Position numbers and translations under genes: made by a program
Assembly (NCBI RefSeq): GCF_910592395.1
Contig: NC_088309.1
Span: forward strand, 10,542,501-10,606,500
Direction of reading: 5' to 3'
DNA from: Lineus longissimus
Lineage: Eukaryota > Nemertea > Pilidiophora > Heteronemertea > Lineidae
Length of the DNA: 64,000 nt
The notes under the pieces: generated by a model
The model's database searches: none
Told to the model about the DNA's origin: nothing
The model's input: the letters and a program-made list of their open reading frames with translations, nothing else
Shown here: positions 106 to 55,852 of the stretch, piece after piece
Layout of the letters: each line of letters opens with the position of its first letter
How positions within the stretch are numbered: position 1 is the stretch's first letter

Positions 106-3100
106 CTGGCCCTATCAACATATCAGCGGTCCTTGTTTCATACTTGTCGTAGCAATCATACTTTGGACTGTGGCATTTCAAACCTCGATCCTTGCCAGCA
201 CTGATCATGTGCAGGTAGTAACGATAAACATTCGGGTCTGTTGCCGACTTGCCACGCTCTCTTCCTGGGATACAGGTTGGACATGGTATAGTGATCTGAA
301 ACATCAGAATTCTAAGAATAAGGTCCGTTCACACAGATCAGTCCAATAAATGAAAAGATTTCTGCATCAATCATGACCGGGACGAATTCATGATGACTCA
401 GGCCTACAGTCATTGATTGTTCCCACCAGGCTCGCTGCCTTCGAGCTTGGACGACTACCACAGGGATAAAGCAACTCATTATCAATCCCTAACTAATCCA
501 TCAATCAATGCAGGTGAGAACGACTTCTACCCACCTAAAGCACACCAGTCAAAATTGTTTACTGCCAGAGTACATTTACGGATTCTGCCTCTTCATAACA
601 CACACTGACAAGTTTGTATTATACGCGCCGGTCACCGATCCAAAGGTTGACCGTGCTCAACGTTGCTTAACTTCCACTCTGGGGCCAACGCGCCAACCAC
701 TGGGCCATAAAGGAATTCCCTCATGGCCGGCGGGTTAAGCCGTGCCATATACCTGGGGGTACTATACATCATTCCCCCCTTCGGACAGAGATGGATCGTC
801 CGCGATCCTACTTAGCGCTTCATGCGTCTCAGTACCGAACTACAAATCCAGAGCTCGCATCGCGTGGGAAGGTCTGCCAGATGTATTGTCTCTCCGGATT
901 ATACGTAGAGCCGGGAAAAGAGTTCAAAACGGCTTGATATCAACAGAATGATTGTCAAATCGGCTTTATTTATCGTCGATCGTTTTCGCGTACACACCTC
1001 CGGGTCTCACAACACAGTTTCTCTTTTATGCCTCGTGGCACGGTCTCACTCCCCAGTTGAGATGACTGGGGATACCATACAAAGTTGATTTGTAGTTAAA
1101 GTCTTTTCCAAAGGGCCTTATTTAAATACTCAAAAGTAAATTTTAAAGATGGGTAGTAATAGCATTCCGCGAAGATGACGTCACTGCAGCTGCTGCCCTC
1201 TACTTCCCCATCGCTGAATTACAGGCAATGTCGGACAAACATGCGGTTTCGTAATGGATTCAGGCTTTCTAACTAGGGCAGTTAGATTCAATCTGGCACA
1301 TGTCCGAGTGTTGGAAATACTACATAATTGTTCTGAATATTTCTCTCTCTGACTCTATGGTATCATTCATGCTAAAAACAATGCAGGGTCAAAGATAATT
1401 GACTTTGAAATAAGCTCAAATGCGTAGAAATAAGTGTCGATGTCCGACTGTCACGTGACTAAAACGTCATCAATATCTTATGCAAATGACCGTGTGAGCT
1501 ATAAATAGTAACTTCGCGGAATGCTATTTAGTGCACTTACATTTGCAAATATTCCCTCCTTCTGAAGGCAGTAGTCCATGATGGTGGTGGCAAGATTCAT
1601 TACACTCCATAGGCAGTACTTTCGGCAGTTCAGATTCTGAAGGCCAGACTGATTTTCCATTCTGGCACTGAAGACCACCTCTGGGTAGCCTAATAACAGA
1701 TGGAAAGTATATTGTATTTCAAGAGAGAATCCTACTGGTTTGAAGGGACTGCATATCAATGTGACCATTATCGACCCCCTTTCCCCCAAAATATCGTTGT
1801 TAGGTAATGTCACAATGCTAAATTATAGGTATACCAAATCTGCAGTTTCGCAAACTATACCCATGACTACTTTCTGGTGTATAGCAAAGGTAATATTTAT
1901 TATACCATTCATTCCCGGAATAGCATCGACCAGCAAGTCCACGCCTCCCTTCCTTATCAACATTCCAAACTTCTTGATAAGTGTGAACCTGAAGAACTTT
2001 GCACATCTTCCGAAGAATTTTGGAAGCAGGGACCACGGACATCCAGGGGTAAATCGATAGAACTTGTCAACTTGGACTGTGGTACGTGGATCCATGGCCT
2101 TAGGCCAGAGCTTTTCCTGAAAAAATAGTTTTAGATGAAAATGTTTTTCCCAATGTCTGAACTGTTTCAACGGAGTAATAGTTCGCATGCATTTACCCAA
2201 CACTGTCATGACTGTAGAGTTAGACGTATTTATCAGAAGGCAATCAAACCGAAAGACATGTCAAAGGCCACAAGTCATCTGTCAGCACTAAGTTTGGTGA
2301 TATTTACCCGATATCGTGATATATCGATTTTTCATCTCAATGAAAATAAAGAGAGTTGAGTGAGATCACAAGCAATAGTGTTGTTGGGTATCCAATCCTA
2401 AACCCACCGGGTTGACACTCTTCCACTGCACTACCACTGCCCCATAGAACTTACCAGATCAATAACTTCCATTGGACTTTCAGGCAGCTTGTCAGCGAGC
2501 ATGTAGACATGTGTGGGCATGTCCTTGGCAAGACGATCAATCTTCACCTCAATCAGGCAACCACAACTTTTCAGCAGTTTAACAAGCAATAGATACTGAA
2601 GTGAAAGAGAAGACATTTAGAATTGAAATCTGAAAATAGGCAATGGTGAATGAACTACATGTCCTTTCAGCAATAGATACTGAAGTGAAAGAGAAGACAT
2701 TTAGAATCGAAATCTGAAAATAGGCAATGGTGAATGAACTACATGTCCTTTCAGCAATAGATACTGAAGTGAAAGAGAAGACATTTAGAATCGAAATCTG
2801 AAAATAGGCAATGGTGAATGAACTACATGTCCTTTCAGCAATAGATACTGAAGTGAAAGAGAAGACATTTAGAATTGAAGTCTGAAAATAGACAATGGTG
2901 AATGAACTACATGTTAAAGTTAAAGTCTAGGGTTTATAGTCTGATATCAACTACGATATAGGTTATCATCCGACTTTCAGTTTAACCCCGGACGTCCTGA
3001 AACCTTTCAGTAGACCACTGATGAGCTGCTCAACCAGCGCTATAATCTGAGCATTTCTGACCGGTACCCATTTATACACCTGGGTGCAGAAAGGCAAGTA

Positions 3101-6100
3101 AGACAGAGAGACCAGCCTACAGTCTCACGCCGACAGTGGGGATTGAACCTGGGACCTCTTGACCGCTGGTCGAGAGTCCAAGCCACTACACCACAGCGGC
3201 TCTCCTTTCAGAAATAGTCATCCAAGCATTTCAAAGCATTTCAGTGAGTCGGCATAAACGCAATCTGTCTTGACAAAATTTCCTCACACTGAAAATTTAG
3301 ACCTTTACCTGTTCAGGTGTGACCAATTCTCCTAATGCTTCTTTCAGCAGCTTGTCTGTCCACACTGGTGTATTCTCTGTCACAAAACATATCTGTTTGG
3401 CAAGCTCACCATCCTGGCGTGGAGGACCCATCACAACCGCAAGGACTCTGGCAAACCAGTCCAGGTCAGATACATAGGGAGATCCCTTGACACCATATTT
3501 GAACACAGCAAGACCCTAGGAAATGAAACAAAGTGAGAGCAGCATCAGAAAGCTAATCTAGACAAAAATGGATCAAAGGCACTTCTGCTTGTATAAGGTA
3601 AAATAGGGAAAGCTAGCCCCTGCCATATTTCCCCATTAACACTTTTCAGGATCGGGTAGCAGACTTTTGATATCCCAGCATGTAGACCGCGCAGCGAGGT
3701 GTGTACCTTTTTAAGCCCCTTTCAAACATCAGACCCGAACAATGCAACGACAGTGCAAACTCCTCATGCTTACATGACATCACATGACCTCACAGGGTAC
3801 GAATCAACAGAGCTGGCAAATTACGCCACAATGACAGATTTGATCTCGAGAGAGAGTGCCGTGGTCAAAGCTTCAAACTTGAAATAGTCAACCTCAACTT
3901 GTGAGAAAAGAAGCTCAGGGGATGCTTTAACTCGTAAGCAAAAGAACATCTATACTGTACTCACTCTTTGGTGCAGTCCAATGGCAGTTTGTTCAAGACA
4001 TGGGTAGGTCATTTGATTCGTATGAAAGGATAATGCCCTTGCGTCAGCATGTGCCTTTTCTGCTATATCAGTGAAGGACGATATGCGATGGTTCATCATG
4101 TGTTTTTCGGCCAGATCTTTGGCATCATTTGAATTGATGCACATCCAGCTCAAGTCTTCTTTGAAGTAGACAAATGCATTGGCAAGAAATGATTTTGGGT
4201 CAAGCTGGAAGAAAAGATCGAAATGAAAACATGTTGAAAGTATTCCGATGCGGAAAAGACAATGTTTTGAACTGCAGTGGAAAACAGTGTAATCTCTGTT
4301 TGGTTTCAGTCAATTGCTATAAATAACCTTTACTAAGTTCTCAAAGAATTCTCCTGATGGATTCAATTGAGAGCTAAACGTTTCACAGAAATAAAGACCC
4401 CAGCTGTCCCTCGCCAAACTCACAGCCCCCTGATATTTGTACCTCTTGATCTGCATGAAGTACGTCTCCAAATATTTTGATCCTGTCTAAGTATTCCTTC
4501 ATTGCAGCAGCCTTTCCAACATATATCTGGCCAGTTACATCCAAGTCGTCAATTCGCCAGGCTGACCTTAAAGATAATATGAAACTCATTGTTAAACTGC
4601 CACTGTACCTTTTGACTTCCATCAAGTACTTCTCCAAATATTTTGATCCTGTCTAAGTATTCCTTCATTGCAGCAGCCTTGCCAACATATATCTGTCCAG
4701 TAACATCCAAGTCATCGATTCGCCAGTCTTTTCTATAAAACAATAACTGAGGGTCTAAACCTTGAAAGTTAAACTATTAGAGTTTGTTTCCAATCGATTC
4801 TGGTACAAAAAGTTCAGCTCGAGACAAATGTCTCGTGTTGGAAGCATTTTAAGATATGGTCCCATATTCTTGGGAGGCTTTGATGGCAGTTGACTTGGTC
4901 TTAATCACCCAATGCAAATATCTCAATGTCTGTCTAAAACCAAGAGACTACTAGGCATTACATCATGGAGGGAAAATGACCACTTGACTGATTTCAACCA
5001 ACGTTTCAAAGTCGTTTGACTCTAACCAGGTTCAGTATCTGAATAATATAAAGGAAGTGACTACTTGGCAAGCCCGGCTTACCAAGCAGCGACTTTTTCT
5101 TGTCCTGAATGGAGAGCCGAACTCATTAATATTAAAGTAAAGTCTCCAGCTCGCCAAACAGGGTAGATTTTTTACCTGTTTGGCAAGCCCGGCTGGCCGA
5201 ACAGGGTGGCTTTTTAGTGCTGTTTGGCAAGCGGCTCTCCAAACAGGACAAAAAAAGATGCCTGTTCGGCGAGCGGCTTGCCAAATAGACCCGGCCTAAT
5301 ATAAAATGGACATCATCCGTACCTCGACATGACCAGGAGTTGTTTTCCCATGGACGCAGCACGCTCTTGAACATTTTTCCTCACACCGGCTAGGACAGAA
5401 TCCACCATGCTCTTGGCTTTTTCAACTGCTATGCCCGTAGTGTTTATACCAACAAGTACAGGAACCAATTTGTGGGGCTGAAATCGATAGTTTTCATATC
5501 ACAGTTTCTTGAAAGACTAAAAGAATGTAAAGGATTTTCGGACCTTCTTAGATAAACGGTATGCTTCCAGCTTCTGTGAATATTATCACCCCACATGTCA
5601 AACCCCTCCCCAAGGGAACTCTTTCATCATCATACAGGCCAGCCTGACATTATCAAGAAATTGCCCTCCTTTGAAGGTTCAATGTGTCACCTCAGGTGTG
5701 ACTCGCAACATGGACAAAGAGGGCAAACCTAAATGGGCAACCAGAAACTGCAGTGACACAAACTACCACAGACAAGAAAGAAAATACTTGCTAACCTTTG
5801 ATAATATGAATGATATCTTTCCTGATAAGTAGGCTACCATGCCATCAACACTTCTAGTACACTGCTCCAATGCAAACGGTAGCAGGCACAAGCAACCGTC
5901 ACTTAGGATTAAGTCTTGAATAGCCTGAAATAGAGGGGCAAGCAAAAAATTACTCGGGCGGCATAGTTGCGCAGAAGTGAGGCGATTACCAAATCGCACA
6001 ACTCGGCGGTCGTGAGTGTAATTCTTAATCAGAGCACATCTTCTTTGAACGAGGAAGTGAACTTTCAAAAAATCCCTGTAGATGGCGCAGTGAGTCATGT

Positions 6101-9100
6101 AACTTTTCAGGGCCCATGCTTTAAACTACATATAAACAAGAACGCTAACTGCTGATGAACAAGCACAGCCAGCAAATTACATAACAACACAAGCACGACG
6201 ATGGATTGGATTTTGTGATACGGGTCGCTCGCCTCATATATTTTCGATTGTATTTTTGTGCTTAGTTTAAAGCTCCAGAAGTCCACGTGCATTTGCCTCA
6301 TTCTAATCTGTTACACGAACCTGTAGTCTGTGGATTTCATAGATGTTCAGGTGCATGTCTCTGAAGGGCACTCCACTGAGGACAGAGAGAGGTCCAGTAT
6401 CGGGAGTCGTGTCTTTCTCACCATTTTTCAGGAACTTGGCAAGACTGAAGTCAAGGTCATGCGCGCGCAGTATGATGACCTTGAACTGTTTTACATGGTG
6501 AATAAAATCCCCCTTATCACAGCAGTTGACATCTGGAAGGAAAACCATTGAATAACATGAAAATACAGCATGTCCCAATGACCAAAATAGACTTCTATTT
6601 CTAAACTGGAACATACCAATTTACGATGATTTTTTTACGGCATACAAGGCAAAAATACAAAGTTGAACAAATTTTCAAATTGCAATAATAAGCCAATATT
6701 ACCCAATCTAAGTCAAATGTAAGTGCGAAAGGTGTTGTCATGAACAGACCTGGAGTGTGTTTTGCAATTTCTGAATGACATGTCATGTCTTGAGGACAAC
6801 TGGCATGCACCAGTTGTGACCCATTAATTACAGTCCTTGTTACAGGTTGTGTGTGCCCCGTGTGCATGTATGTGTGTGTTTGATATGTGTAAACCACTTT
6901 GAGACAGCTAGACCCAGGTCAGTATCAAGCACTCAGTTGTTATAAATCGAACACTTGTGTGAGATTAACCATACTCACATGAGTTTCTGGCTTTTGTAAA
7001 TGTTGTAAGATATCTTGTAAATGATGGAGCAACAAGGCTGCAGCCATCAACCTTTAGGCCAACACCAGTATCCCCTGAAAAATGAACACACATTCTACTC
7101 ACAAGTGCTTCTCTCAGCAGATGATTTGAACCTTTCGATAAATCCGAAGTAGGGTGGGCAAACTAAGTGGCAGCCATCCAATTTGAGGCCTACACCTGTG
7201 TCACCTAAACAAAACAAAGTAATTGAAAATCAGAGCCGATCATTGGGATCACCTCTCAGCGAACAAATTCATGAAGGCAACACGGTGTGATATAAACAAC
7301 ATTCTATACTTACCCCAATGGGTAGGGATAGTTGTGACCCCTGTTCCTGACATATCAAGGTCTGTCAGTGACGGCTGCGACTTCAAGAATAGGGACAGAG
7401 TTGCAGAGGTCACTTTGGGACAGCCAGCTACTTTGACCTGCAAATAATTAAGCAAGCTGGAAGGTAAGTCTGGATCAGTCATTCAAGTATGAAGTATTTC
7501 ATAAGATCGTTTTTGATAAGATAGTCACGTCGCTCGTAGTCACATTATCGCCGGTCAAGATGTTGTGGCAATTTTTTCATTTCTAGCAAAAATAGTAGCG
7601 ATTTTATGAGGACATCTGCAGTGAGGAGACGATCACCACTACTATGAAAGTATTTTGGAACTTCTAAATCTTTGTGCATGGATATTTAATGTAAGCTGAG
7701 GCCCAGCTAGGTTACCTGGAATGTCTTCATCATATGAACATAACAACTTCTGACTATAGACTTAGAGGGGGGCCTTGGTCTTGTGGTTAAGGTGTACAGC
7801 CGTGTGTTATGCTCATAGGAGAGAACACAGAGAAGTACTTCTCATTCCTCTCTTTATCTGAAAAGGCCTAACCATGTATCTGAAGTACCTCACCTCCTTC
7901 AGGTTAGTAGCAAGTTCTATCAGCCATCTAAATGCTGTGTCCGTCACCAGCGGGCACCCTGCAAGGCAAAAAATATTCTGAACATTTTTGAACATTTCAA
8001 AACAAATGCTTTCCAGGGTCTGAGATTGGGTAAATTCTTCTTCTTCTTCTTCTTCTTCTTCAGCGTTCGCTCTGCACTTGGAGGGGTCATTCTCCGAGGA
8101 GTAATCCTCCTCCAAGGCGGGATGAGCGTATCCTGCGTGCCACTACGGTTAGGCGCCAATTGGGTTTATTGGCCTAGTGGTCCGACTTTGGCGAGAGAGA
8201 TAGAGTCCACGCAAGCTACTCATGTTTCTCACTTGGTGGGGTCTTAGCTTGCCCTGGCATAGACACCAGGTACAAGGAACCTCGGTTTTGAGTCTCATTC
8301 GAAGGACTTTGAAGAGCCAGGAATTTTAGTTCCTTGAAAGCCACGCCGGTTCCTCCAGACATCGAACCCGGGCCCTATTGCGTGGTGGCCAGCAGTGTAA
8401 ACCACTAGGCCATGAGGCTCCTTAGATTGGGTAAATGAATCTCACATCTTTTTAAATGTTATCTTCTCAAACTCGGATACCATTTGAAATCCAGGGCCAA
8501 CTCAGAAAGAACTTTCCAAAAATATCAATAAGATGTGTGTGCACAAGTGTACACTACTTTGAATTAATTGAGTGACAGTTAAATGCCCTCTCCCCCTACA
8601 TAGATCGCATCCTTACCTGAACAATTGAACGTTTTCATTCCAGTCATTTCCACTTTGGAATCATGTATCAGTTTAAAGAAGACGTCATTGAGTCGATCCA
8701 AACCAGCCATACTAAGACGAGTCAATGTTTTAGTCAACACTATCGTTGACACATAGCTCTGTATGAAGAAGGCAAAGCAAATTGAATTAAAACCCATTAG
8801 TATAGAATCCTGAAACTCAGGTTTTGGAGTCAATAGAGAATGCATGCAAGCCAGATATTCGTTGCAATGTAAACACATAAGAGTCAGGATGGTTTCTAGT
8901 ATTCCACTCGAGATTTTGAATACATAAGGCACAGTGTCCTATCTTTTTTTAGAAATATCTGCTCTTTATTCCATCCAGCTAAATTTCAGGCTGAAAAAAA
9001 CATATTTGTACATACCTTTGCTGCAAAGAGTTGGATGCATTTTTCTTTTTGGAAGTTTTCAAAGCTATCTGCAGTCAATGGTATTTCGACTGAAAGAGAA

Positions 9101-9851
9101 AACAGTCACATGTCAGATGCTTGAAGAAGCAGCAAGAAGTTGAACAGGGTAATTCCCACTCAAAATCACTTATCTCCTTTCGTGAGTTTTTTTTCACCAA
9201 AACCAGTAGGTTTTGATTTGGATATTAGAGGTTGGGGTAGCATTAACAATCACATTCACAATGACTGAGACAAATTTTAGCAACAATTCAAAAAGTTGAG
9301 AGGGAATTCATTTCGAAAGAGCAATTTTTTAACTTCCATTCAAAAGAAAGAGTTAAAGTCACATAATGATATGACCATTTTTCTGATTGAAACCCTGCTG
9401 AAAAGACAAATCTATAAACGTCTCAAGCTTAGCATTTCAACTTACTTGGTTTCATCCTCGATTTTTCAACAGACTTAAGTCTCGACTTCCCAACAATCAT
9501 GTCATCACCTGAGAGGAAGGACAGAGCAGAGCGGGCTGCCGGTTTTGGTAATGGTTCCTCTTCACCTTCATAATCATAATCGTCTGAACTAAACATACGT
9601 CCACTTTTTGCAGTCCTGAATGCCCTACCATGACTCTTTGCAGCTTTTTTGTTAGTAGTATTCGCCCACAAAGGAGCATCGGAATATGTTGCTGCAGCTT
9701 CGTTGCCTGTCACCGGTCCAGGCACGCCAGGTGGTGGTGGTGGTGGAGGTGGCGGTGGGGGAGCTGATGAAGGTACTGATGCGGCTTCTGTTGCATCATG
9801 ATCATCTGCATCATCATTACCCTTCCTTGCCGTTTGCTTTGTCCTTGCCAT
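106..9851 (-). CDS. LRR/Roco-like protein with histone H3-tail N-terminus (partial, runs off left edge)
   Basis: Multi-exon gene modelled from splice sites and phase. Exons in transcript order: 9851-9446, 9089-9016, 8758-8617, 7958-7894, 7437-7314, 7204-7103 or 7074-6979, 6532-6321, 5924-5796, 5477-5323, 4732-4609 or 4566-4443, 4204-3965, 3515-3309, 2595-2455, 2116-1835, about 1748-1541, 295-106. The last exon ends in phase 1, so the gene continues off the window. Approximate domains: H3-like tail 1-10, proline run 31-41, leucine-rich repeats about 160-300, Roc-like fold without P-loop about 303-510, COR-like region from about 510, then a CPxC module. An in-frame TGA five codons before the ATG fixes the start. 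The junction between the 2116-1835 and 1748-1541 exons is unresolved: the obvious GT and AG disagree in phase, though both open frames lie in the same frame around a TAA. Family assignment is by pattern recognition; function is unknown. Confidence 0.75.
615..735 (-). repeat. SINE-like fragment with 5S rRNA-like and tRNA-like promoter boxes
   Basis: On the minus strand, 680-629 reads like the internal promoter of 5S rRNA: GAAGTTAAGCAACGTTGAGC, then CTTTGGATCGGTGACCGG, with normal 5S order and spacing. Just upstream, 712-690 resembles a tRNA A box (TGGCCCAGTGGTTGGCGC). The rest of a 5S gene is absent, so a composite or 5S-derived SINE is the likelier reading than a working gene. Confidence 0.4.
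1158..1528. mobile_element. MITE with 17-bp perfect TIRs and TAGT target duplication
   Basis: The left terminus AATAGCATTCCGCGAAG (1158-1174) is the exact reverse complement of 1512-1528. The element is flanked by TAGT on both sides (1154-1157 and 1529-1532), which reads as a 4-bp target-site duplication. It is 371 bp with no coding potential seen. Its right end is 12 bases from a predicted splice donor (1541/1540) of the H3-mimic gene. Superfamily not assigned. Confidence 0.75.
2587..2920. repeat. 84-bp tandem repeat, four copies, spanning a splice acceptor
   Basis: The word CAATAGATACTGAAG starts at 2587, 2671, 2755 and 2839, an exact 84-base period. The first copy overlaps the 5' end of the exon 2595-2455, so the acceptor (CACTTCAG|TATCTATTG on the minus strand) is repeated four times. 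Use of an upstream copy would run into a TAA after about 20 codons. Confidence 0.85.
2925..3204 (-). mobile_element. tRNA-derived SINE
   Basis: Minus strand 5' end near 3203. The A box TGGTGTAGTGG and B box GGTTCAATCCC have tRNA-like spacing, followed by a body with ATAAATGGGTACCGG that continues to about 2935. It lies in an intron of the H3-mimic gene, next to the 84-bp repeat. Confidence 0.65.
4443..4566 (-). CDS. Alternative exon B2 (124 bp) of the H3-mimic gene
   Basis: The acceptor is ATCTTTAAG and the donor is CAAGAG|GTACAAAT. Length and phases equal those of exon 4609-4732. The shared 31-codon core (WRIDDL to KIFG) differs only at five third positions, so the protein is identical there. 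The ends differ (SA at the start; DVLHADQE at the finish). If spliced after its partner, the frame opens GTC AGC CTG GCG AAT TGA, an immediate stop, so joint inclusion would break the protein. Confidence 0.65.
4609..4732 (-). CDS. Alternative exon B1 (124 bp) of the H3-mimic gene
   Basis: The acceptor is TTTTATAG and the donor is CAAAAG|GTACAG; phase is 2 in and 0 out. It encodes the end of the Roc-like region (KDWRIDDLDV...). It is 42 bases from a second 124-bp copy with the same phases. Its variable ends are KD at the start and EVLDGSQK at the finish. Confidence 0.7.
5062..5295. repeat. Imperfect tandem and inverted short repeats
   Basis: Units of roughly 40 bases share CTGTTTGGCAAGC or its complement in alternating orientation, so the stretch can fold on itself. 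It is intronic, just downstream in transcript terms of exon 5477-5323. No coding signal. Confidence 0.5.
6979..7074 (-). CDS. Alternative LRR exon A2 (96 bp) of the H3-mimic gene
   Basis: Partner of the 7103-7204 exon. The acceptor is TTTTTCAG and the donor is CAT|GTGAGTAT; phase is 1 in and 1 out. It encodes a leucine-rich repeat whose second half (APSFTRYLTTF) differs from its partner. Its branch point would have to lie inside, or upstream of, the 28-base spacer, which also holds the partner's donor. Confidence 0.7.
7103..7204 (-). CDS. Alternative LRR exon A1 (102 bp) of the H3-mimic gene
   Basis: The acceptor is TTGTTTAG and the donor is CTT|GTGAGTAG. It enters and leaves in phase 1 and encodes a repeat starting DTGVGLKLDGC. 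It is homologous to the next exon (6979-7074), which starts DTGVGLKVDGC. Only 28 bases separate the two, so a transcript can hardly splice one to the other; choice of one or the other is the likely outcome. The two copies diverge after the shared DGC-LV segment. Confidence 0.65.
8036..8423 (-). mobile_element. tRNA-derived SINE with GAA-repeat tail and target duplication
   Basis: The 5' end is at 8423 on the minus strand: A box TGGCCTAGTGG, B box GGTTCGATGTC. The 3' end carries a GAA/CTT microsatellite tail (about 8037-8062). Direct copies of AGATTGGGTAAAT at 8023-8035 and 8424-8436 mark the target duplication. It sits in an intron of the H3-mimic gene and is a different family from the SINE near 3 kb. 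Confidence 0.8.
9446..9851 (-). CDS. First coding exon: H3-tail mimic plus proline-rich segment
   Basis: The exon starts ATG GCA AGG ACA AAG CAA, giving MARTKQTARKG. This matches histone H3 through K9 and diverges at the S10 position (Gly). Arg2, Lys4, Arg8 and Lys9 are all present. An acidic stretch, a run of 11 prolines and a basic tail follow; the exon ends A|GTAAG in phase 1. The start context is CAAAATGG, and an in-frame TGA lies upstream, so no longer N-terminus is possible in this exon. Codons differ from common H3 codons at several synonymous sites, so this is not a recent copy of a histone gene. Confidence 0.85.
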
Positions 9852-10368
9852 TTTGAATATTAGTCAGTGTCGTACTTGCTCATCATTGGCATAAGATATT
9901 GTCGTTAACAGACAGGCTGTAAAAGAAAGAAAAGCATATTTTGAGATTTAACTTGCCGATTTTGTATCTCCTGCTGTGCTGAAATGTTTTAGGGCATTTG
10001 GACAGTACTGATCTGCGCTCAGGCTAAAAAATAGCACAGAAAAGTCACCAAGACAGCTGAAATCATGTTAAAACTTGGACCAAACTGACGTCAATAAGAT
10101 GCACAATTTGTCTGAGAATGAGGATCCAGGTAACCTGTGCTACGGAGTGCTATTCTGGTCTGTCACTGTCCGATGCCTATCATCCGGCCAAGGGATTGCC
10201 ACGTGCAGTGATGTCAAGATGAAGTACCGGTACAAATATGGTGTCACAGGTAAAGGCCCTAAATAGGGGCCTAAGCCATGTAAGCAGTAAGATTATAAGA
10301 TAGGCCTAGGCTAATAAGTCATGACAAGTCTTAAGAGCTGAAAATGTCAGGCTAAATCCTTACTTACA
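9852..10368 (-). promoter_or_regulatory. 5' UTR intron and upstream region of the H3-mimic gene
   Basis: On the minus strand an acceptor (TTTTACAG) ends at 9917 and a consensus donor (GTAAGT) sits at about 10367-10362. This suggests a non-coding first exon beginning to the right of 10368 and a short 5' UTR exon segment 9916-9852. No protein-coding signal was recognised here on either strand. The model is inferred from splice sites only. Confidence 0.4.
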
Positions 10369-10717: not shown

Positions 10718-13700
10718 ATGATGTCGCGGGCTGTTCGAGCAGAAACGAGAAGCAGAGCAAAGGAAGATATCAAAAGAGTCATAAATGCAATAGACAAAGT
10801 TCGCACCTGGTACGATCTCTTTGTTATGCCGTGCCAAAAACTGCCGGCTTTGTGTTCGTAGTGTAAAATGGGTAACATAATTTCGCCAGTACCCTAACTT
10901 AGCAATTGGCTGGAGGTTCACTACTCTCTCTTTTGTTTACAGGGAGAAGAAATGGATCACAATTGGTGATACCACCATGAGGATATTCAAATGGGTTCCA
11001 GGTAGGACTAGAGAAAAGTTAATGATCATTTGTAGTTTTGAGGTGCCAGCCTGCGCTGCAGTGTCACCTCACCAGTTGGGATTTGCACCACCTCAGTAGT
11101 AGAAGAATCCCCGCCATGAGAAGGGAAGAAGGGAGCCTTGCTTGCCAGTGGCTACATGGTCGCTGGCTATTGTATTGGCTTTTGTATGCCGCTGTATGGT
11201 TACCAGTTGCTAGATTGTTCAAAACCATACATGGAAGAATTGTATATTGCATGGCGTAAATGTATTCGTCAGATTTTGTGTTTGCCATATCGCACTCATA
11301 ATGACCTGTTACCAGCCATTATAAAGGACTGTAGCGTTCAAACTCAATTGGAGAAAAGGTTTGTAAAATTCATCAAAGGACTGCGAAATCAGGAAATACA
11401 CTCGTAAAGGTTACAGTTGGATTATTATTTGCCGGGAGCGTCTCATCAGTGGGGAAAAGTCTAACTATGGTGTTACAAAAGTACAACTGGAATAGGGATC
11501 AGCTGCCTGATGAATGTATAATGCTAAGGGACATCAATAGGGAATTTTGGGGATTGGGGCATAATAGGGTTGCCATCCAAGTTAGGGAATTGCTTGAAAT
11601 GCGGGAGGCAGGTAATCATATTCTCACAAAAGAGGAAATAGACATGATTCTTAACTTTTTGTGTACAGGTTGATTTGATGGAGTATTGTTTTTGGTGTTA
11701 GTTTTATTGTGATAGTTCAAGATGCTAATGTAACTTATTCAGGATCATCTCCAAGAATGAGAGGTTTTCGGGTTCGACTCTCAGTCTTACCTTTTACTTT
11801 GTTTGCCTTATCGTAAACTTGTATTTGCACCCAACTCTGTATTGTCTTATTGCACCTTATTTTTTGTTATCTGTACAACGGAAAGTAGTACGAATAAACA
11901 TATATATATTGGAACAGTTTTTGAAGTAGATTTAAAGAACTCAACCTCTCTGGCACGAGTAAGTAGTAACACACCTACGGTACACAGGAAGAACATAAGG
12001 CTTTTTACAAATTACAGTTGACCTGTAGGCTGTTGTGCATTTCTCAAATATTTCATCAAAACAACACTTTACAGCAGTTTTTCGATAAATTGAAATGTTT
12101 CTTTTCAGTTTCAAATCCAGATTCTAGTCAGGTATGTTAGAGAAATTTCTAAATAAATATTTCAACATTTCAAATTGATATCCTGTAAAGGTGCAAACAC
12201 ACTTATTTCAGGAAACAAATCTTGAGTTATTTCCAAATACTGAATAATTCTGTTCTTCATTATTTTGGAAATAAAACGTTGCTTAGTCGTTGTGTGATTG
12301 TGAATCGTGTAAATTGTGCATGAAAACCCAGTACTCCTCTTGAAGAGAAGAAAACAGGGATTCGTTTATACTTTGAATCAGTATAACATTTGTATAGTGG
12401 TGCTTTAAACAAAAGCAGTATTCATCGAATTCAAGCACTTGTGACTTGTCTGTACTGACATCAGTGCTGAAAAGCATTGAATTGACCACTGCAATATGTA
12501 GTTTTCTGAAACAGTGAATATTTTATGTTTTTATCACTCTGTTTGTTCTGTAGCGAACAAATTTCCGGGCTATGAAGTTCAAGGTAAACTAAGCGTGAAT
12601 GTTCATCTCTCTTAATCAGTCATCATCTGCAAGAAGTCTACTCACTCACATCCTTCATCCATGATTTCAAGAATAAATAAAGATTCGTCTTTATGTGTTC
12701 TGGGTCATATCAGATGGGGAGAATCTGTGTCTGATTTCAATGAAATGTATGTTGCTGCATGTCTCCATCCTTATCAAGTTATGGTTGGTGGTAGAAGCAT
12801 GCCAGGGTAATAAGTTACACATGACCATGAAAGATATGAGGTGTCATAGATAGCTATGAAATGACTCCAAACAATATGTGAAACTATTGGTACAGATATT
12901 ATTTGCTCTTTTTTAGACTTTTCTTAATTTGTGCTTGAGAATTTTCAAACAAAGTTTGATTTATCGTGGAGTAGGGTTTGACATTTCATTGCTTTCGGAG
13001 TCACTTACTTCAGTGTCTTTTAACAATTCGACTCATCATCATTCAGCTATCTTCACCAAGCTTGACGAACATTGATTCACTTCGAATTTCCTGCTGTGTC
13101 ACTCAAGTTGCTTGTGCTGTCGTAAAAGTGTGTCATTTCATAACTTTATCATATATGTTCTCTTCGAGACAGTTTCATGCTAGGTTTACTAACAGTCACT
13201 GTTGATCAATGGCAAGTTAAAAGCAGCAGATATACATCTGTTTCCAGTAAAACTAGGGTGAATGAACAAATCCGTACCCTTCACTCACTGTTTTGTCTTG
13301 CATAAATTAGTGTTGCAGAGTGATGTAGTCCTAAATTGTGTGAAACGAAACTTCACCAGTCCTGTAGTTTTTACTAGTTTACCAAATTAAGAGCATTTCA
13401 CATCTCAAATTTCACCATCCCAGATAATTTTCCTGTGACAAACATAATTTTTGTGGTCGATTTTGATTACCTCATCAATAGATGTGTCAAATATTCATCG
13501 ATGATCTATCTCTGCATGTGTAAATGGTGAGGTGGCTGGGCAACTTAATTGAAAGATACAAAAGTTTGTCTGTGATGTTCCATCCTTGAAAACCAGTGTC
13601 AGTCGCATGCTCCTCCTTTTGCATACACATTTCTACATTCAGGGAAGCAAGTATGGATGACCTGAATCTGAATCTTAGTTTCTTCTAGACTATTCAGCCG

Positions 13701-21069: not shown

Positions 21070-21312
21070 ACTGTATAATGTATCGCACTTTGACATTGGC
21101 TGCCCACAAATTGAAAAGTTGGAAAAGTATCCGTAAGATTAGTCTATTGGGTGATGTAGAAAGTGTACTTTTGAATGATGATACTGCAGCTGGACAAATT
21201 ATTGTTATGTTCCCTCAACAAATACCAAGACGAACTCTGTGCACTAATGAATATTGTTTTAAATTTGTTGATGTCATTCATCTTGCACTTGCAGGTAAAT
21301 CAGAACGCCAAG

Positions 21313-22170
21313 ATGACAACTTACGGAGTACTTAGCTATATTGAAGCAAAACGAAACAAGTCTCTTCCGGTGAAAAAAAAAGACATTATTATTGACTTGC
21401 TTAAGGATGAGCCGATGCCTTTCCGTGATCCTAAAGTGATGCACCGAGTAATCACGGATGCAGAATGTGAAGGAAAGGAAGTCCTCATAATCGGTGATGT
21501 TCACGGCTGCCTTGAAGAGTTAAAAGATTTACTGGTTAAGTGCGACTTGTTAGAAGATGGTGTAGTAAGAGACGGTGCCATAGTGATTCTCTGTGGTGAT
21601 ATAGTAATGAAAGGTCCACTTAATGTCGAGACATTACGCTATATGAAGCATGCAGGCATTTTGGCAGTAAGGGGTAATCAGGATGACAAGTGTATACTAC
21701 GGTACACCGACAAAGTAAACGGTATACCTTTTATGACTAAGAATCTGTGGATGGAAGGCTTGACTGCAGATGATATCGAAGTTCTCCTTGACCTTCCTTA
21801 CTCTATATCAATCCCAAGCGTTAAGACTGTCATTGTGCATGCTGGAGTGTTCCCAGGTGTACCGTTGGAGGAACAAAATCGATTTGTCTTGACATACATG
21901 CGGAGTATACACTCAAAAAATGGAACTCTAGCACCTAGTCCTGCCACAGTGAAAGAAGATGAAGACCAGCCATGGGCAAAATTGTGGCGTGGTCCGTATC
22001 ATGTGTATTTTGGCCATGATGCGAGGCACGGACTACAGCAGTGGGATTTCGCAACTGGCTTGGATACAGGCTGTGTGTATGGGAAAAAAATGACTGGAAA
22101 ATTTGTTGCTGGTCGACGCCAAGGTGAATTTATAAGTGTTGATGCCAGGAACACATACTGGAAAGTATAA
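21313..22170 (+). CDS. ApaH-like (ALPH-type) metallophosphatase
   Basis: Single-exon frame of 285 aa from ATG 21313. Metallophosphoesterase motifs in order: GDVHG at 61-65, GDIVMKGP at 95-102, GNQDD at 121-125, HAG at 176-178 and GHDARHG at 234-240. The KGP in the second motif and the GHD-xxGLQ end are typical of ApaH-like rather than PPP Ser/Thr phosphatases. Relatives cleave diadenosine polyphosphates or act on mRNA caps; the substrate here is not known. The frame stays open upstream to an ATG at 21175 (331 aa), but those 46 residues look unlike the family and an acceptor-like TTGCAG ends at 21294, so the later start is preferred. AATAAA at 22876-22881 may end the transcript. It begins about 240 bases after the Harbinger element. 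Confidence 0.85.
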   Translation: MTTYGVLSYIEAKRNKSLPVKKKDIIIDLLKDEPMPFRDPKVMHRVITDAECEGKEVLIIGDVHGCLEELKDLLVKCDLLEDGVVRDGAIVILCGDIVMKGPLNVETLRYMKHAGILAVRGNQDDKCILRYTDKVNGIPFMTKNLWMEGLTADDIEVLLDLPYSISIPSVKTVIVHAGVFPGVPLEEQNRFVLTYMRSIHSKNGTLAPSPATVKEDEDQPWAKLWRGPYHVYFGHDARHGLQQWDFATGLDTGCVYGKKMTGKFVAGRRQGEFISVDARNTYWKV

Positions 22171-31702: not shown

Positions 31703-34700
31703 TCAGGCATTGTTGTTGTGGCAACCCACTGGCTCACCAAATTTAATTTTCTGTCCATTTTTTATTTTAAAGTCAAAAGATTTCGGCGCCTCGAAGACTA
31801 AAACAATAGTTGAACCAAGATTGAATTCACCAAACATCTCCCCCTTTCTGAAGTCGATTCCCTTCCTGTTGTCTGCCCAAAATGTTTTGTCGTAGTGTCG
31901 ATTTTCTTTCAATGGCTCGCCACTGTTTGTTTCTAAATCCTGAAAAGATAGTTGAAGAAATATATTGAAAGGAGAAATTGACTGCCTTGATTCATATTTT
32001 CATGGATGACACCAGGATCCTCGGTCTTGCTGGATAATGGTCTTATATTTCTGTTCAAATATCCAACCTTTTCTCTCAAACTGTGGTGTCTGAAATGATG
32101 TAAGACATCATTTAAGACAAGTGGTGTACTAGCAGTGAATTCCTACTTCACCATTCAAAGAAACAGGAAACCGATTGAAATTTCATGGGAGATTCTGGAC
32201 ACATTGGCCAAACTAATAGCTTTCATCAACTATATTGTAACCTTTTCACATTTTAGCATCAACTAACTAAGCCAAGCCACATGGTCTTCAATGAAATGGA
32301 ATGAAAATGCAAACTTACATCATCAAAGTAGCACTTGATTGATCCGACGTTGGTGGCACCAACTGCCGCCATGGAAAAGAACCCATGTGTCCATGTTCCA
32401 TAGTAGACAGCTCGCTCGTTGAGGTTGAAAAGACCCTGTACCCATTTGGCCACACCAGGGTTCACACTGAGGAGATCACCTGAAATATAAACAAAGGAAA
32501 GAACTTGTGATAAATGGTCATCAAAATACAATATTACAGTAAGAGCAACTGGATACAGGGGCCATAATAATTCCTTCATGAGGAGGGGGAATGGGCTTAT
32601 ACGGGACATCGAGATTGCCCTAAGACTGATCATAGAAATTGGAAATGGGATAGCGGAAAAAATTGTAAAGGAAAATTGGTACCGGTACATTCATGGAGAG
32701 ACTAGGCCAAAATTGCCATCGGGAATTGGGATTAGGCCTCCCCTTATATCAGAAGGTGGGACAGAAAGCCTATTTGCTCCCACCTTTACATGTATAAGTC
32801 ATTTAAGTAACATTTTTGGTATAACTTGAGCAATGGAAAGTACCCAATGAAACTGTGTCTGATATTCACTTTAAGTCTGGCATAACTGAGCCAGCCTATC
32901 GTGTTCACAGAGGACCTCTTGAAACAAATCGGTGACTCACCTAAGAAATGGCGCCTATACTGGACATTCCAATCCGTTGGCGAATGAAAACGATGGTAAT
33001 CACCGGGCGCCAAATAAATAATACAATGGAAGAGATCGGTGCCTTCTTTGTGCATCTTCAGCGACGATTCGTAGACTTTTTCGTCGATTAGCATCTGAGT
33101 ATTTTCCGCTGAATCGATGTTATGATTTTCATTATAGATTGCAGTGCTGTCCGTCCAAGTGTGAGGTCCAAGGAAACCCTGTAGACAGTATGTCACACCT
33201 TTTACTTGTTCCAGACGGCCGTCTTGAACTCGACCAAAATGCAACACGCGACCATCAGCTGGGCTAGTCTAAATGTAGTGAAAATAAGCGTTTTAAAAAT
33301 TAATTTTTAAAACCAACACCAGCACACTCAAATTGTGTACCCTTTCAGATATATTCCTATCATCTTTTACATGTGAACACAGGAATTGTACATTTTTGAT
33401 GGCTGTTGCTTATTATAAAATAAGCTCTCTATATGAAAGAAGTACAGATACTCAGCTGATTTTTAAAAGACACAACAGAGAAAAATAGCATTACAATTCC
33501 CAAAAAAAGGACTTACAATGCTATGTGTGGAATCTATGTTTCGAACATAAGGTTTCAGCTGTCTGCGGAAAAATTCTCCAAGATTTCGATAGTGACGTAA
33601 ATCTTCTATGGCAGCCTCTTCTAAGTTGCAGTTGAACATCCATATGTAGAGGCTGTAGGCGGGCGTACGTAGCCAGTTTGGCAGGTCAAGGCTATTGAAT
33701 TTCCCCCATAATCTTGAAACAGCTTTCAGTGGCATTTTACGGTAAAGCTGCACCTAAAATGACAGAAGAAATCGACCGTGACGTTTTTTTTACTTCAATT
33801 TTTCGTCACCTGGTTTAAAAAACTTGGAAGTGTTCCTTAGTGAGAATCTGGAAATAATTAAAAGATCAGTTTCTGATTTACATAATTGTATAAGCTTGGC
33901 ATCCCCAAACATAGCTATAGCTGTAAGAGGATATCACAAATTTAAACATTCCATTTATCTGCAATCAGAAATGACAATACAGTGGAACCTTCCTCAGTGG
34001 ACACCACCATAAGGTAAACACCCTCTCTATTGAGGACACTTATTCTGGTCCCAATTTGGTCATTTCCATTCAATTTTACCTCTGCAAGTAGGACACTCCT
34101 CTATTAGGGACAGGATTTGTCAGCCTCGTGGGTGTCCTTAATAGAGAGGTTCCAACGTAGTTATTCATAATAATATGATGCAATTTTTTATGATGGTGTA
34201 GGAGGCAAACACACCATAGACCTGTCTCACATTAAATGATTTTATGACATTCTGACATAATTTCATCTAGCAATCAAACAATTATATCTATGGAGTTTTT
34301 GATCATTTCACTGTTAGCGTAATACCCAGGAAGGATCCACAACTTATTTCCCCCCAGTGGGGGAGAGATGAGTCAGTGAGATGAGCAGTTTGCTTACGAG
34401 GTGTCCAAAAAACTGTGGGCAGTTAACAGTTTAAGTCAGTACTGCATTGTTATCATGAGTCTAAAGGAAGGAATGACGCATGATTAGGTCAATGTCCACA
34501 AATATACAAGATAGCACCATTTTTTGCAGACAGCAGACTATGAAACGTTGAACAGGCAAATAAAATAATCGTCATAAAGCACAGACCAGAGGGAAGGATG
34601 ACAATACTGGGAGTTTTTTCCTTAAAAATGAAGCTGAAATAAAGATAAATTTACAGAGCAAGTGACTTCAATCAGAATATTATTAATGAAAATGTGGAAG

Positions 34701-45952: not shown

Positions 45953-48900
45953 CTAAGCACCTTTGGATGTGATCTGTGTCAGACCCTTGCATGTGATCTG
46001 TGTCGGAGCCTTGCATGTATTCTGACGCATCAATCCCACAGCAGGCTTCAGACACATGTCCACGAAACAGCAGAGATTGCCATTGATGCACGATTCCTGC
46101 AACATCTGATGGACAGGAATCACTTCATTGGTTGGGTTTGCCTTCCGAAAAGATATAAATAAGCTCATGAAGTAAACATGTTGAAGTAACTCTCGGTGCT
46201 CAAACAGAGGACGAACTGACTAATTTTGCGAGAGAAAGGTACGACAGCTGAGAGTAGATAATGATAATAATAAATAAATATAGAATTTGTAAAGCGCCTT
46301 TCCAGGTCACCCTGCTCAAAGCGCTACCTCCTCTATTTTTTGAAGTGAAGATTAAACAAGTGTGTTTTAAGAAGGGATTTGAATTGGGTGAGGGTCTCAG
46401 CAGATGTAATTGCTTTGTGGAGTCGATTCCAGAGATAAGGGGCAGCCACGGAGAAACTGCGATCCCCGTACTTTGATTTTGAGCGAGGTAGAGGGTGGTG
46501 AACTCTCGTGAAGGCTCTGTCCACCAAGCTGAACAAGCTGGAACGTAACTGTCGGGGGAAGCGTGATGAGGGCGAGTACACTAAGCCAATCATTAATAAA
46601 AATTTAGAGAAGTTTGCCACGTCTGAAAAAGACACCCACTTCAATATGTTCTGTTCTCACACCGGAGTGAATCTGCCTAATCGGTTTGATATTTTCAGAA
46701 AATGCTTTGTTGTGAGATTTCATAAACACTGGCAGGGAGACATCGCCATACCTTGTCATAGTAAAAGCCACCCTTATTCAGTAGATACTCCTCCAACTCT
46801 AGCCAAGCTTCACCAGACATGCCAAGAAGTCCTTGAACAGAACCGCCTCTACAGAAGACAAGTCCTTTACATGTGCCATCGTCTCCAATGATTCTGGAAA
46901 GAAACAATTTTGAATATTCCATGAAGACCATTGACATAAGTACCAGTAGATGGAGTCTTTGAACAACGTTCTCAAAGACTTTGAATGACGCTCTCAAAGA
47001 CCCTTTTGAAAGCCAATATTTCAAACTTTTATAGAAACGTACTGAATACAAGATAAGAAAGGAAAGAGCCAACGGTCCTAGCTGCAAACAACATCAGAAG
47101 TAGCAGGTAGTTGTTTTTCTATTATCATACCTATAAAACCTACATCTTGACCAACCCCAACAACAGCCTGGCAAGATTTTGAACCCTTTGACAGGAAGGC
47201 CTTCGAACTTGGTGCTCAGCCTTCCAATTCAACTCAAACCTGGCATCTCAATATCAACTATGCAGGCAATGCCATATAGGCAATGCAATAGAGTAGAATG
47301 GGGTAATTGTAGCCCCGGTTCAATTGTAGCCCATGCCTATGATATTGATTGATATCCCCATGCATCAAACAATGCAGGAGCAACAAATAAACCGGGGCTA
47401 CAAATACCCCATTCTACCTTACTTACATTGCCTCTGGTTTGATGATCCCAGCATTGGAGGTACAGCCACGTCCTGTACAATTTCCATTATGAAAGTGACT
47501 TGCACAATGCATGCACACAGGGTCCAGTGTAAGTTTCAGAACAACGCTCACAAAGACCACACATTGGAACTGGATCTCCTCAATCTCATCAACATTCCAG
47601 ACTTGGAATAGAGACATCTGTGGTGGACTAATGGTCTTCTTACTGCAAAGAAGTTGAACACACATAGAGACAAGCGTAGCTAGGGCACTGCAATGACTCC
47701 AGACAGAAGGAAAGGTTGTCATCATTTTATTGCAAGGGCAAATGCCCTAACTGTGTGCAATACACTCTTTGCAGCCCAAATGTACATGTAGCATCGCGAA
47801 GACCACTTAACCAGACAATGAGGGAGCATTCATATGCACTGGGTAACACTATGTCTGGCCAAAATGCCAAATAGGGACCGGGCTTATGGCATATGACCAG
47901 GAGGTAAATGCCCTTAATCATAAGACCAGTGTTGTTCAATTTTGGAATAAGGATTGATGATAGCAAATAAAGTTGAAAGCAACTAGCAATTATAACAATA
48001 GATGACTGACCTGGTTGTAACAAGCTCTGCAGTGCGTTTCAGAACTTTTATGCTAGAAACTGCTACAAACTGAAGGCAATTCAGACCGTTCAATCTCCTT
48101 CTCCCAACTTGACTGGCAATGATCGTAGCTCCTGGCAGTACTCCTAATGCATAGGGGTGTGATCCACATGGTAGCCCAAGGTATATCTCATCAGAGGTCT
48201 CGGGGTCGGACAGGGTGAGAGTGATCTGGCCACCAGAGGGTGATAGACCTGAAATGAAGGCAATAATAGTAAGTATTCAATGCGATGAACTGATGACAAG
48301 CCGAGTATTCACAACACAAATATATCGGGATTCAACCTATCTCTTTGAGGACAGTTTTCATTAGTAAATAATGAGAGGGTGTCAGAATGAATGCAATCCT
48401 AATTGCAGAATTTGCTTAACATCTAATAGTAAAACATACCTAGTGAATTAATACATTTCTTTGGAAGATTTGTTGCTCTCCTATCCAATGTTTTCAGAGT
48501 CTTTGAGTTGACGATACCCTTGACTGAAACCAATGCTTGACTTGATCCTTGATTAGAATGGAATGCAGACCTGGAAAGTTAATCAAAAATCTGTTAAAAT
48601 CACTACAATGTATTCTCTGTTGTTATGTATACTCCTTTGGGACAAAACTTCCGGATTTTGATTCTGTTTATGGATGCACATGAATGAGAATGCTAAAGAA
48701 CCTATCATGCAGTTAGCGTTATGATTTCTGAATAAATGATTATGATCAAGATTTTGAATGAACAATTAGACTATTGATATTTGTTTCCCGCCCACTTGCC
48801 TGCTTCTCAGTAATTCAGCAACAGTGAGGACGTCTGGCTCTACTTTGTTGATACTTTCAAACAAAGCAGACGACACAACAAAGTCTTGCAATCTCTCAAC

Positions 48901-51900
48901 TTGACAGTTCTCATTCAGGGTGAACGTTTTTGTCAGACTTTTCCCTCTCAATCCTGCTGGCACATTTGAAATGAAGACTCTCTGCATCAATGCGGGATTC
49001 ACAGTCAACTTGTACACACAGTTGCAATGCAGGACCTCAAACAGCCTAACTTGTGCACCACTAATGGTCAAGGCAATTCGTTCGAATGTAAAGTTTTCAT
49101 CACAGTTTTCTGAAGGTACTAAATGGCCCTGTGATGCACAGTCTTTATTTTCACTTTCTTCTTTTAATTGTGAAGCTTTTACAGTCTGTACACTATTTCC
49201 ATTAGCATCTGTTTGTCCCACAGAAGCACCTCTTTTTTCTCTGAGCTTAAACCCAGTGATGTTGAAAAAAAGTTCACCGGTCGTTCTGGTGAATTGTTTC
49301 ATTTGCAGGCCTTCTTTTGTACAAATGACAAGAAATTCACAATCTGAAGACTGAGACAAAATTTGTGGTGCAATACTAGGCTGAATTTCTGTTATTTTTC
49401 TACTACATTTAGCACCACCAAGTTCTGTTCCTGTGCCGATAAGGGTCATTCTAACATCACTTGATTCTTTCCTTTCACAAAAACCACTAGTAGACACTTT
49501 ATCACAACCTGATACAGATTTAGCACCATGGAATTCTAATTTAGCACAACTAGAGTTCACTTTACTTTGAAGTGATTTCATTTTAGCACTTGGTAAAGAT
49601 TGCGGATTTGAGTATCCGCACTCAGATTCTGCACAAGCTATATGTCTTATAGCAGTTTTGTCTTTAGCACCAGTTCGATATGAATCCAGAGCACCTGGTT
49701 TTTCTAGCTTCACAGATTTCTCATGCTTTCTTTGTGTCTTGTGCACTCCACTGACCTCAGAACCCGGCACCTCAGACTTAGATTTCATCGAAACTTTATC
49801 ACAAATCAGTACATCTTTTGCAGAAACCTGAACGTAACATTTTGTTAAGTTTGAATCAGAGGAACCATCTTGGCATGAAAACGTCTCGACAACAACTTCA
49901 TAATTGTCTATCCTGACAACATGATCCAAGAGCCATGTCTGAGCATAAGAACACCGAGATATTCGCTCATTTGCACAGAAGCACTTGGAGGCTGTCCTCT
50001 GTATATCCGAACACAAATGATGACTTTTGTCTTTCCGGTCGTCAGAAATAACAACACTAATATGTCCGTAGCTGTCTTGCAATTCAACGTGGCCGTTTGT
50101 TTTGTTCGTATGTAGGACCCCCAGCAGAGCCTGTAAAGTTACAAAAAGATTTGAAAATACAAGAAATATCAGAGCCTCTTTAGATATGTGACCGATGACT
50201 CCATACACTGTGATGTCATGTCGTGACTGCACCAAAATCAAGAACAGAATTATGTTATTATCACCATGAAGTTGAATTACCTTGATTTTCTAGTGTTTGG
50301 CCGAACTTCATTTTCAAATTACATAACTGATCTATTCTTCACACAATATTTACCTGGGGTGGATTGAAATCGGAAGATTTGAAACATTTGGCCGACCACC
50401 CTTGTTTGTGATCCGAGGGGGCGTCGTCTCTGTGTCTCATCGGGATGGAGAGAAGGTCAGCTATAGTTGGGAAAGTGCAAGGGAGACCACAGTCCTGAAA
50501 CGAACACAAAAAATTTACGGTGCCTATACCAATTGTTAATGGGGGGGGGGGGGGGGGGGGGGTTGGAACTATAGCAGGAGCAAAGGGTCAAATTGAAAGA
50601 CTTCAGCTGACTTAATATGCACAGTATAGGGGCCTTAGTGGTGTTTGTTTCTGTGATAATTACATTATTCACACAAACATGAATTGATTTGTTGTACTGT
50701 GATATAGAGAAGTCAATCCCAACATCCTACTAATCACTTTATGCCCCTTCCAACCCTTCCCAGCAATGTTGGGATTGTGAAACACGCTGATGTGTGCTGT
50801 ACCCACCTGATTCTCAAAACAACTGTCTTTCAGGAACTCCTCAACTTCATTTATATTCCTGTTTCCTGTCTTTGGGGGTATTATCTCCAGTGAGGACAGC
50901 AGCGGCTGGGTAAGAACTGTATGAAGTATGACTCCGGCTCGATGTCTGAAAATAACAAATATGATATCACCCGAAGTGCAGAAATATGAATAAAATCGAT
51001 ACCACTGCAAAAAATGTATTCTATAACATGACTAGGATGTAGAAATGCACAGAAATATGAATAAAATCGATACCACTGCAAAAAATGTATTCTATAACAT
51101 GACTAGGATGTAGAAATGTACAGAAATATGAATAAAATCGATACCACTGCAAAAAATGTATTCTATAACATGACTAGGATGTGAAATGCACAGAAATATG
51201 AATAAAATCAATACCACTGCAAAAAATTTATTCTATAACAAGACTTTGATGTAGAAATGCACATCAACTGCTTTTGTCTCTAAGGTAGCTGGGCTGGGCA
51301 GTGGGGTAATGCCATCGATATCATTGCCGATCCGAGTTAACATTGATGCTTATGACCTCTGAGGCCGTGGGTCCCTGTCAGAAGATGACAAATGGTAATA
51401 ACAGCAGGAACAGTTAGACCCTAATTGATGAAGTACAATAATAGATGAGCTGGCTTGATCTTTTCATCTGCTAAGAGCTACAGTGTTATACCATACCTAT
51501 TCTTTGACAGATTGAACCTCTGGACAATCGACTTTTCAAGTTTGCAGACCTCATACAGCAGTCTATTGCAGATTGTATGGCTCGAAAGTAAGGATGCAAC
51601 ACTACTGGTTGAAAATCGAAATGGCTGAAAAAAGAACTAAGAAATTAACTGACTACAGAACTTTTACGTAATCATTTTTATTTAAAAGTGTTGCTGCCCA
51701 GGTAGAACTATTGTAAGTGATCATTATATCTGCAGGGTCATACTAAAGCAAGTTGATGATTCAAACATACCATGGATTCTGATGGCTGGTCTGGGTGTTC
51801 AAGGAGCTGAACACTGCTGTGGATACAACCAAAGATGACTTCATCCTCACTGAAAACCTGAAGAAAATATGACTGAGTATTTGAAAACAATACCAGTACA

Positions 51901-55557: not shown

Positions 55558-55852
55558 TTTACACCAAAGTCACATGATAAAGTTCGCGGTACATCGTGAA
55601 TTTGTAAAAAATGTTAACTTAATCAACTTCAAACTAATATTAACATCAAAACCATTAAATAAGATATGTATTTGTATAGTATCATTCTCTAGTATTTCTT
55701 AGTTATGGAGATATCGCCATCCAAAGATAAAGTTTCCCGTGATCCTTTAGCGCACCTGCTACGTCACGAATGCGGAAGTGAATGATGATAGAGACGTGTT
55801 GAAATGTTTTTGTGCAGTTTCTAACACATTTTGTCATCAAAGTTGTGATTCC
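55558..55852. promoter_or_regulatory. Putative bidirectional promoter CTC1/FAM174
   Basis: About 300 bases separate the candidate CTC1 start codon on the minus strand from the FAM174 start. No TATA box is placed. The call rests on the head-to-head layout and depends on the uncertain CTC1 first exon. Confidence 0.3.

Follow-up and report, generated by a model that had tools for sequence, protein, structure and literature searches.

The locus and the predicted gene

The window, by which we mean the whole stretch of 64,000 nucleotides of Lineus longissimus DNA that was analysed (C2:10542501–10606500), holds the 5′ part of a predicted gene on the minus strand, here called the Roco-TIR gene after the domains it encodes. 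A hand-built model has 16 exons in the window, all in frame, with 15 AG acceptors and 16 GT donors, and gives 890 residues before the window's left end, beyond which the gene continues. Exon 1 (9446..9851; all exons are on the minus strand) encodes 135 residues and is closed at 9446 by a consensus gtaagt donor in phase 1, the frame being open as far as 9429. It is of low complexity, with MARTKQTARK followed in order by an acidic stretch, eleven prolines, a basic cluster (KKAAKSHGRAFRTAKSGR) and another acidic stretch, and the protein segment that it encodes is probably disordered.

The LRR region begins in exon 2 (9016..9089) and continues through exons 3 (8617..8758), 4 (7894..7958) and 5 (7314..7437; KVAGCPKVTSATLSLFLKSQPSLTDLDMSG). 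Comparison of the model with the paralogue profile described below places the last LRR and the LRR–Roc junction in exon 6a (7103..7204; LKLDGCHLVCPP), and a diverged tandem copy in the same phase, exon 6b (6979..7074), may be alternative or additional. A putative pseudo-Roc spans exon 7 (6321..6532), where the colinear whole-body alignment puts RAHDLDFSLAKF in place of the P-loop, and, by the profile, exons 8 (5796..5924) and 9 (5323..5477; PVLVGINTTG). Exon 10a (4609..4732) has a tandem copy, exon 10b (4443..4566, frame by eye), identical at 109 of 124 bases, with a change of sense in seven of 42 codons. Exons 10a and 10b together run into a stop, so that, should both be in use, a transcript could include only one of them. 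The profile comparison assigns exon 11 (3965..4204) to the Roc–COR hinge and COR, exon 12 (3309..3515) to a COR-A-like, exon 13 (2455..2595) to a COR-like and exon 14 (1906..2116) to a COR-B-like segment; exon 15 (1541..1689) would be COR-B by position, and exon 16 (106..295; IPCPTC...) is the last in the window. By eye, the end of the intron before exon 13 and the start of that exon consist of about four tandem repeats with several copies of the acceptor (2582–2926, minus strand).

Head to head with the Roco-TIR gene, with 867 bases between the start codons, lies a BCL7 homologue (10718–11001, plus strand, and onward; Pfam BCL_N, 1.7e-28 for the joined N-terminus), a member of what we take to be a family of SWI/SNF subunits. 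A promoter shared by the two genes is possible from this arrangement, and a CRE-like TGACGTCA was noted by eye between them at 10086–10093. Elsewhere in the window, Pfam identifies a calcineurin-like phosphoesterase (21175–22167, plus strand), a phosphatidylserine decarboxylase exon (32789–33268, minus strand) and a FAM174-like membrane protein (55751–56263, plus strand); an open frame of 507 codons (48769–50289, minus strand) has a weak match to CTC1 (E = 4.7e-4, below the cut-off).

Two LRR-Roc-COR units, a TIR domain and two paralogues

Beyond the window the gene continues, from C2:10542257 down to about 10521771, with a linker, a second LRR-Roc-COR unit and a TIR domain. This part was read from an automatic gene model that is rough, several of its in-window exons differing from the hand-built ones. 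What it predicts 3′ of the TIR domain is not trusted; the last exons overlap the region of the convergent paralogue A. Pfam matches in the second unit are strong for LRR_8 (1.6e-19), COR-A (1.1e-29) and COR-B (4.9e-27), and TIR_2 is found with 3e-14 (score 54 against a cut-off of 28 bits). The Roc domain of this unit gave no Pfam match in the rough model, and its P-loop, GLGGAGKTS, is intact by eye. There was also no Pfam match in the 679-residue piece between the two units, and in the parts scanned neither a kinase domain nor NACHT or NB-ARC was among the matches. A Glu of the TIR domain aligns with the Glu of CRISPR-associated Cat1 that we take to be catalytic, in a weak match (E = 0.11).

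Pfam found neither Roc nor COR in the first half of the protein, the 890-residue model had no match to the histone fold (PF00125), and the LRR region reached only an LRR_4 match in exon 5 below the cut-off (E = 0.012). Single-sequence comparisons were of little help. Comparison of the first half with the PDB was negative or equivocal, hhalign against LRRK2 alone misplaced its best match (LRR on COR) and hmmsearch with a Roco profile was negative (E = 0.12, −3.2 bits). The full-length hhalign score was 33.1, and the highest-scoring of 30 shuffles reached 28.4; for the Roc–COR part alone 54 of 60 shuffles were as good, and for the individual pieces 37, 22 and 32 of 100 (37 of 100 for the Roc piece). 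The relationship was settled by a profile of the Roco-TIR gene and its two paralogues, compared with a Roco profile built from 15 of 28 returned proteins. The whole first half matched with E = 1.6e-5, colinear across LRR, Roc and COR, and the part after the LRR with E = 1.2e-5, its best alignment covering 160 columns in the COR part; for both matches none of 40 column shuffles was as good. With the three paralogues combined, the first half is related to Roco proteins, the COR part being better supported than the Roc, which is identified because it is located between LRR and COR in the colinear alignment. The P-loop that is absent from this first Roc is also missing in paralogue A.

The predicted protein is therefore a Roco-TIR protein with the order LRR – pseudo-Roc – COR – linker – LRR – Roc – COR – TIR, and it is immune-receptor-like. 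The initial annotation had described an LRR/Roco-like body; the Pfam matches in the second unit and the profile comparison of the first bear this out, but the description was incomplete in that the second LRR-Roc-COR unit and the TIR domain were missed. The LRR-Roc-COR order, the COR-A and COR-B matches and a CPxC segment (by eye) are shared with known Roco proteins (LRRK1/2, MFHAS1, pats1-like). Unlike them, the gene has two LRR-Roc-COR units, the first lacking a P-loop, and an H3 tail at the N-terminus, with no kinase match in the parts scanned.

Searching the genome (391,118,348 bases in 30 contigs) with the 755-residue body gave at least 30 matches among 41 candidates, counts that are lower bounds, and these fall in three places: the Roco-TIR gene, paralogue A (about C2:10485719 onward, plus strand) and paralogue B (about C2:25337692 onward, plus strand). 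In rough models, the first halves of the paralogues are identical to that of the Roco-TIR protein at 269 of 736 and 198 of 549 aligned residues (36–37%), the model of paralogue B missing exons in the Roc region. In paralogue B each part of the architecture is represented by pieces in the same order, through the TIR domain, and in paralogue A such pieces follow in order to just past COR-B, which is the end of the stretch that was read; the matching order supports the two halves belonging to one gene. Paralogue A and the Roco-TIR gene are convergent, tail to tail, and form an inverted pair (C2:10485719 to 10552351).

The first exons of paralogues A and B are also long; with start codons chosen by us they open with MNKSAAVDK and MAEPLDGAK, and ARTKQ is absent from every reading frame of the first-exon stretches inspected. 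No pair among the three first exons aligns significantly (shuffled sequences scored at least as high 36, 148 and 93 times in 300). The lack of an H3 tail in both of the paralogues found argues against deep conservation of the motif.

The H3-like start

On the minus strand, 9851–9819 reads M-A-R-T-K-Q-T-A-R-K-G from an ATG at 9851. Histone H3 residues 1–9 are thus matched exactly, directly after the start Met of the Roco-TIR gene (MARTKQTARK, 30 coding bases, 9822..9851), and the position of H3 Ser10 is taken by a Gly that leads into the acidic run. No similarity to H3 was detected in exon 1 past residue 10 (1526 of 2000 shuffles score equally well). The H3-like start is confirmed as an observation: translation of the DNA reproduces the H3 N-terminus with R2, K4, R8 and K9 in the first ten codons and the departure at S10, as first annotated, though the annotation named no strand. 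Likewise, the in-frame TGA described five codons upstream is present at 9866–9864 (minus strand), and the good Kozak context that had been claimed is found, the ATG lying within CAAAATGG with A at −3 and G at +4. The start had also been called certain. The in-frame TGA favours it, but the word is too strong for a start predicted from DNA. The annotation did not mention a 10-codon upstream ORF (MPMMSKYDTD; 9860..9892, minus strand, by eye), which ends eight bases before the ATG. Some 25 bases 5′ of this ORF there is a sequence resembling an acceptor, ttcttttacag. Both features precede the ATG and make the 5′ end of the transcript uncertain.

MARTKQTA occurs at 12 sites in the 391-Mb genome, 11 of which are H3 sequences and the twelfth the Roco-TIR gene. 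The window has a single site for ARTKQT, and 100 shuffles produced none. At least two of the 11 H3 sequences look broken, and a histone cluster at about 5.83–6.04 Mb of contig C6 has broken-looking H3 copies beside intact ones. In 257 Gb of prokaryote contigs (84,980 GTDB species with one genome each, a set that is no proxy for animal proteomes) MARTKQTARK was found nine times. Seven of these sites are H3 genes, which sit in contigs of metagenome-assembled genomes, eukaryotic contamination being probable; the two others fall within larger open frames, of 800 and 296 codons, but are not in the frame of these. Bacterial genes with an H3 start were considered and rejected, none of the nine sites opening a non-histone gene. 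IMG/VR had no site for the same pattern. From the composition of the Roco-TIR gene, the chance of MARTKQTARK is ~4e-12 per protein start, and it rises to ~2e-7 under an extreme N-terminal mix rich in A, R, T, K and Q that was chosen by us. A chance match of the H3 start is rated unlikely.

A protein search for orthologues scored 7995 candidates, none of which passed, although polyproline words and a length limit may hide relatives; a second search, with a reach of proteins of 77 to 245 residues, passed none of eight. Neither search extended to spiralian relatives. Titles and abstract openings of the open-licence papers retrieved yielded no description of a Roco-type protein with an H3 start.

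Function, coincidence and other explanations of the H3-like end

Our leading reading, held tentatively and at slightly under even chances, is that the fast-changing and probably disordered exon 1 of the Roco-TIR gene, alone among the three paralogues found, carries a true H3 N-terminal mimic. If translation begins at this ATG, removal of Met before Ala would leave a free ART-K4-QTAR-K9 end; this H3-like tail would tether or titrate a chromatin protein, selection would act to keep it, and the role of the Roc-COR-TIR body would be in signalling or as a scaffold. The Roco-TIR body itself suggests immune or death signalling. In H3 the free A1-R2-T3-K4 end is contacted by K4 readers and by the T3 kinase, and Q5–K9 by HP1 and K9 methyltransferases. 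The Gly and the acidic run after K9 imply that there would be no S10 signalling, and LSD1-type binding may be poor.

Mimicry of H3 has precedents. The SNAG motif is a free N-terminus with a sequence different from that of H3. The H3K9 mimics of G9a, GLP, WIZ, LIG1 and ATF7IP lie internally. In PMC8080763, SNAG is called an H3-mimicking motif whose affinity for LSD1 is high, and SNAG-domain repressors (Snail, GFI1) are thus like the Roco-TIR protein in carrying such a motif; they differ in that its end is the literal H3 1–9 and stands on a receptor-like protein. According to PMC10611923 and PMC9768651, G9a/GLP methylate H3K9-like motifs, and HP1 or MPP8 binds them; the position that follows the lysine is reported to vary in these mimics (PMC10611923). 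They offer a precedent for the ARK part; in contrast to these short internal motifs, the Roco-TIR match stands at a free end and extends to R2 and K4.

The main rival is coincidence, in which a loosely constrained, fast-evolving basic N-terminus drifted into nine H3 residues with no H3-related function, and we regard it as a serious contender, somewhat less probable than mimicry. The failure of the three first exons to align fits it, as do the end of the H3 likeness at residue 10 and codons that carry no trace of H3 descent; moreover, the site may come from a scan of many windows for any famous motif. Against it stand the low probabilities per protein start, even under the extreme basic mix, and the prokaryote contigs, where no match opened a non-histone gene. 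The argument for function is that so exact a match at the start codon is improbable. That every difference from H3 is silent forms no part of it and was discarded as a sign of constraint, since identical peptides entail it and the site was selected for that identity.

We consider it unlikely that the H3 end is an integrated decoy, a bait whose modification or cleavage by a pathogen enzyme would activate the Roc-COR-TIR body. Plant NLR receptors with integrated decoys, such as RRS1 with RPS4, combine an immune-receptor body with a mimic of an effector target and provide the precedent; the Roco-TIR gene differs in being animal and in having Roco instead of NB-ARC, and a decoy role is hypothetical here. 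The LRR, COR and TIR parts within one predicted protein fit the idea, and the TIR domain makes a sensor less arbitrary than before. The Mbt repeat is a chromatin-type module. Two Aplysia LRR-ROC-COR-TIR genes, one with Mbt repeats, are described in PMC9334734, so a chromatin-type module occurs in such a protein elsewhere, and TIR is also joined to Roco in Chondrus (PMC11378527). The abstract of that paper proposes brown-algal ROCO genes as immune receptors; these are LRR-ROC-COR genes with tandem, alternatively spliced LRR exons, and their proteins are described in the paper as simple LRR-ROCO. In the Roco-TIR gene, by contrast, a single exon at the LRR junction and a single exon at the hinge are duplicated, and these are candidates for such splicing. 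The SNAG and K9-mimic precedents, the Roco-TIR body and the Aplysia Mbt repeats make a decoy or sensor role coherent, if unproven. Weighing against the decoy are the confinement of the motif to one of three paralogues and the hypothetical nature of the immune role, of NAD hydrolase activity in the TIR domain and of the pathogen enzyme. Its fuller form, an animal innate immune receptor whose H3 end is an integrated decoy or sensor of H3-tail writers, readers and cutters and whose exon 1 swaps bait between paralogues, seems a shade less likely still.

Capture of a fragment of an H3 first exon by gene conversion, exon shuffling or retroposition, giving the gene its start codon and a tail since kept or decaying, is very improbable. 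The 30-base start shares 23 of 30 bases with the genome's own replication-type H3, and the silent differences follow from the identical peptides; codon usage alone, however, predicts 23.5, and for two other H3 starts the agreement is 19 against an expected 22.5 and 22 against an expected 22.6. Inspection by eye revealed no likeness in the 5′ flanks viewed at the H3 loci, nor is there any past residue 10. A DNA match no better than codon usage predicts leaves no trace of H3 descent, and a recent H3 copy was rejected on that match together with the lack of similarity past residue 10. The codons had been annotated as unlike a recent H3 copy, and nothing indicates one; as an argument, however, the codons are weak, with 23 of 30 against 23.5 expected, and the DNA tells neither descent from H3 nor convergence. 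Finally, an error in the gene model, with exon 1 belonging apart from the Roco exons or with the true start codon elsewhere, would suit a structure known from DNA alone, an upstream ORF so close to the ATG and a first exon unconserved in the paralogues, but is scarcely credible given the consensus donor with a phase match into exon 2 and the long open first exons of both paralogues, each closed by a GTAAGT donor, that of A in the same ...CCAA|GTAAGT context as exon 1.

Even with an idle tail, the gene gives a nemertean protein with a double LRR-Roc-COR arrangement, a first Roc that lacks the P-loop and a TIR domain. If instead the mimic reading holds and the tail is functional, the literal free end of H3 1–9 would stand on a protein other than a histone, and a receptor with a TIR domain would be linked through it to chromatin readers or H3-targeting enzymes. 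An H3-tailed Roco-TIR gene bears on whether animals, like plants, use integrated decoys.
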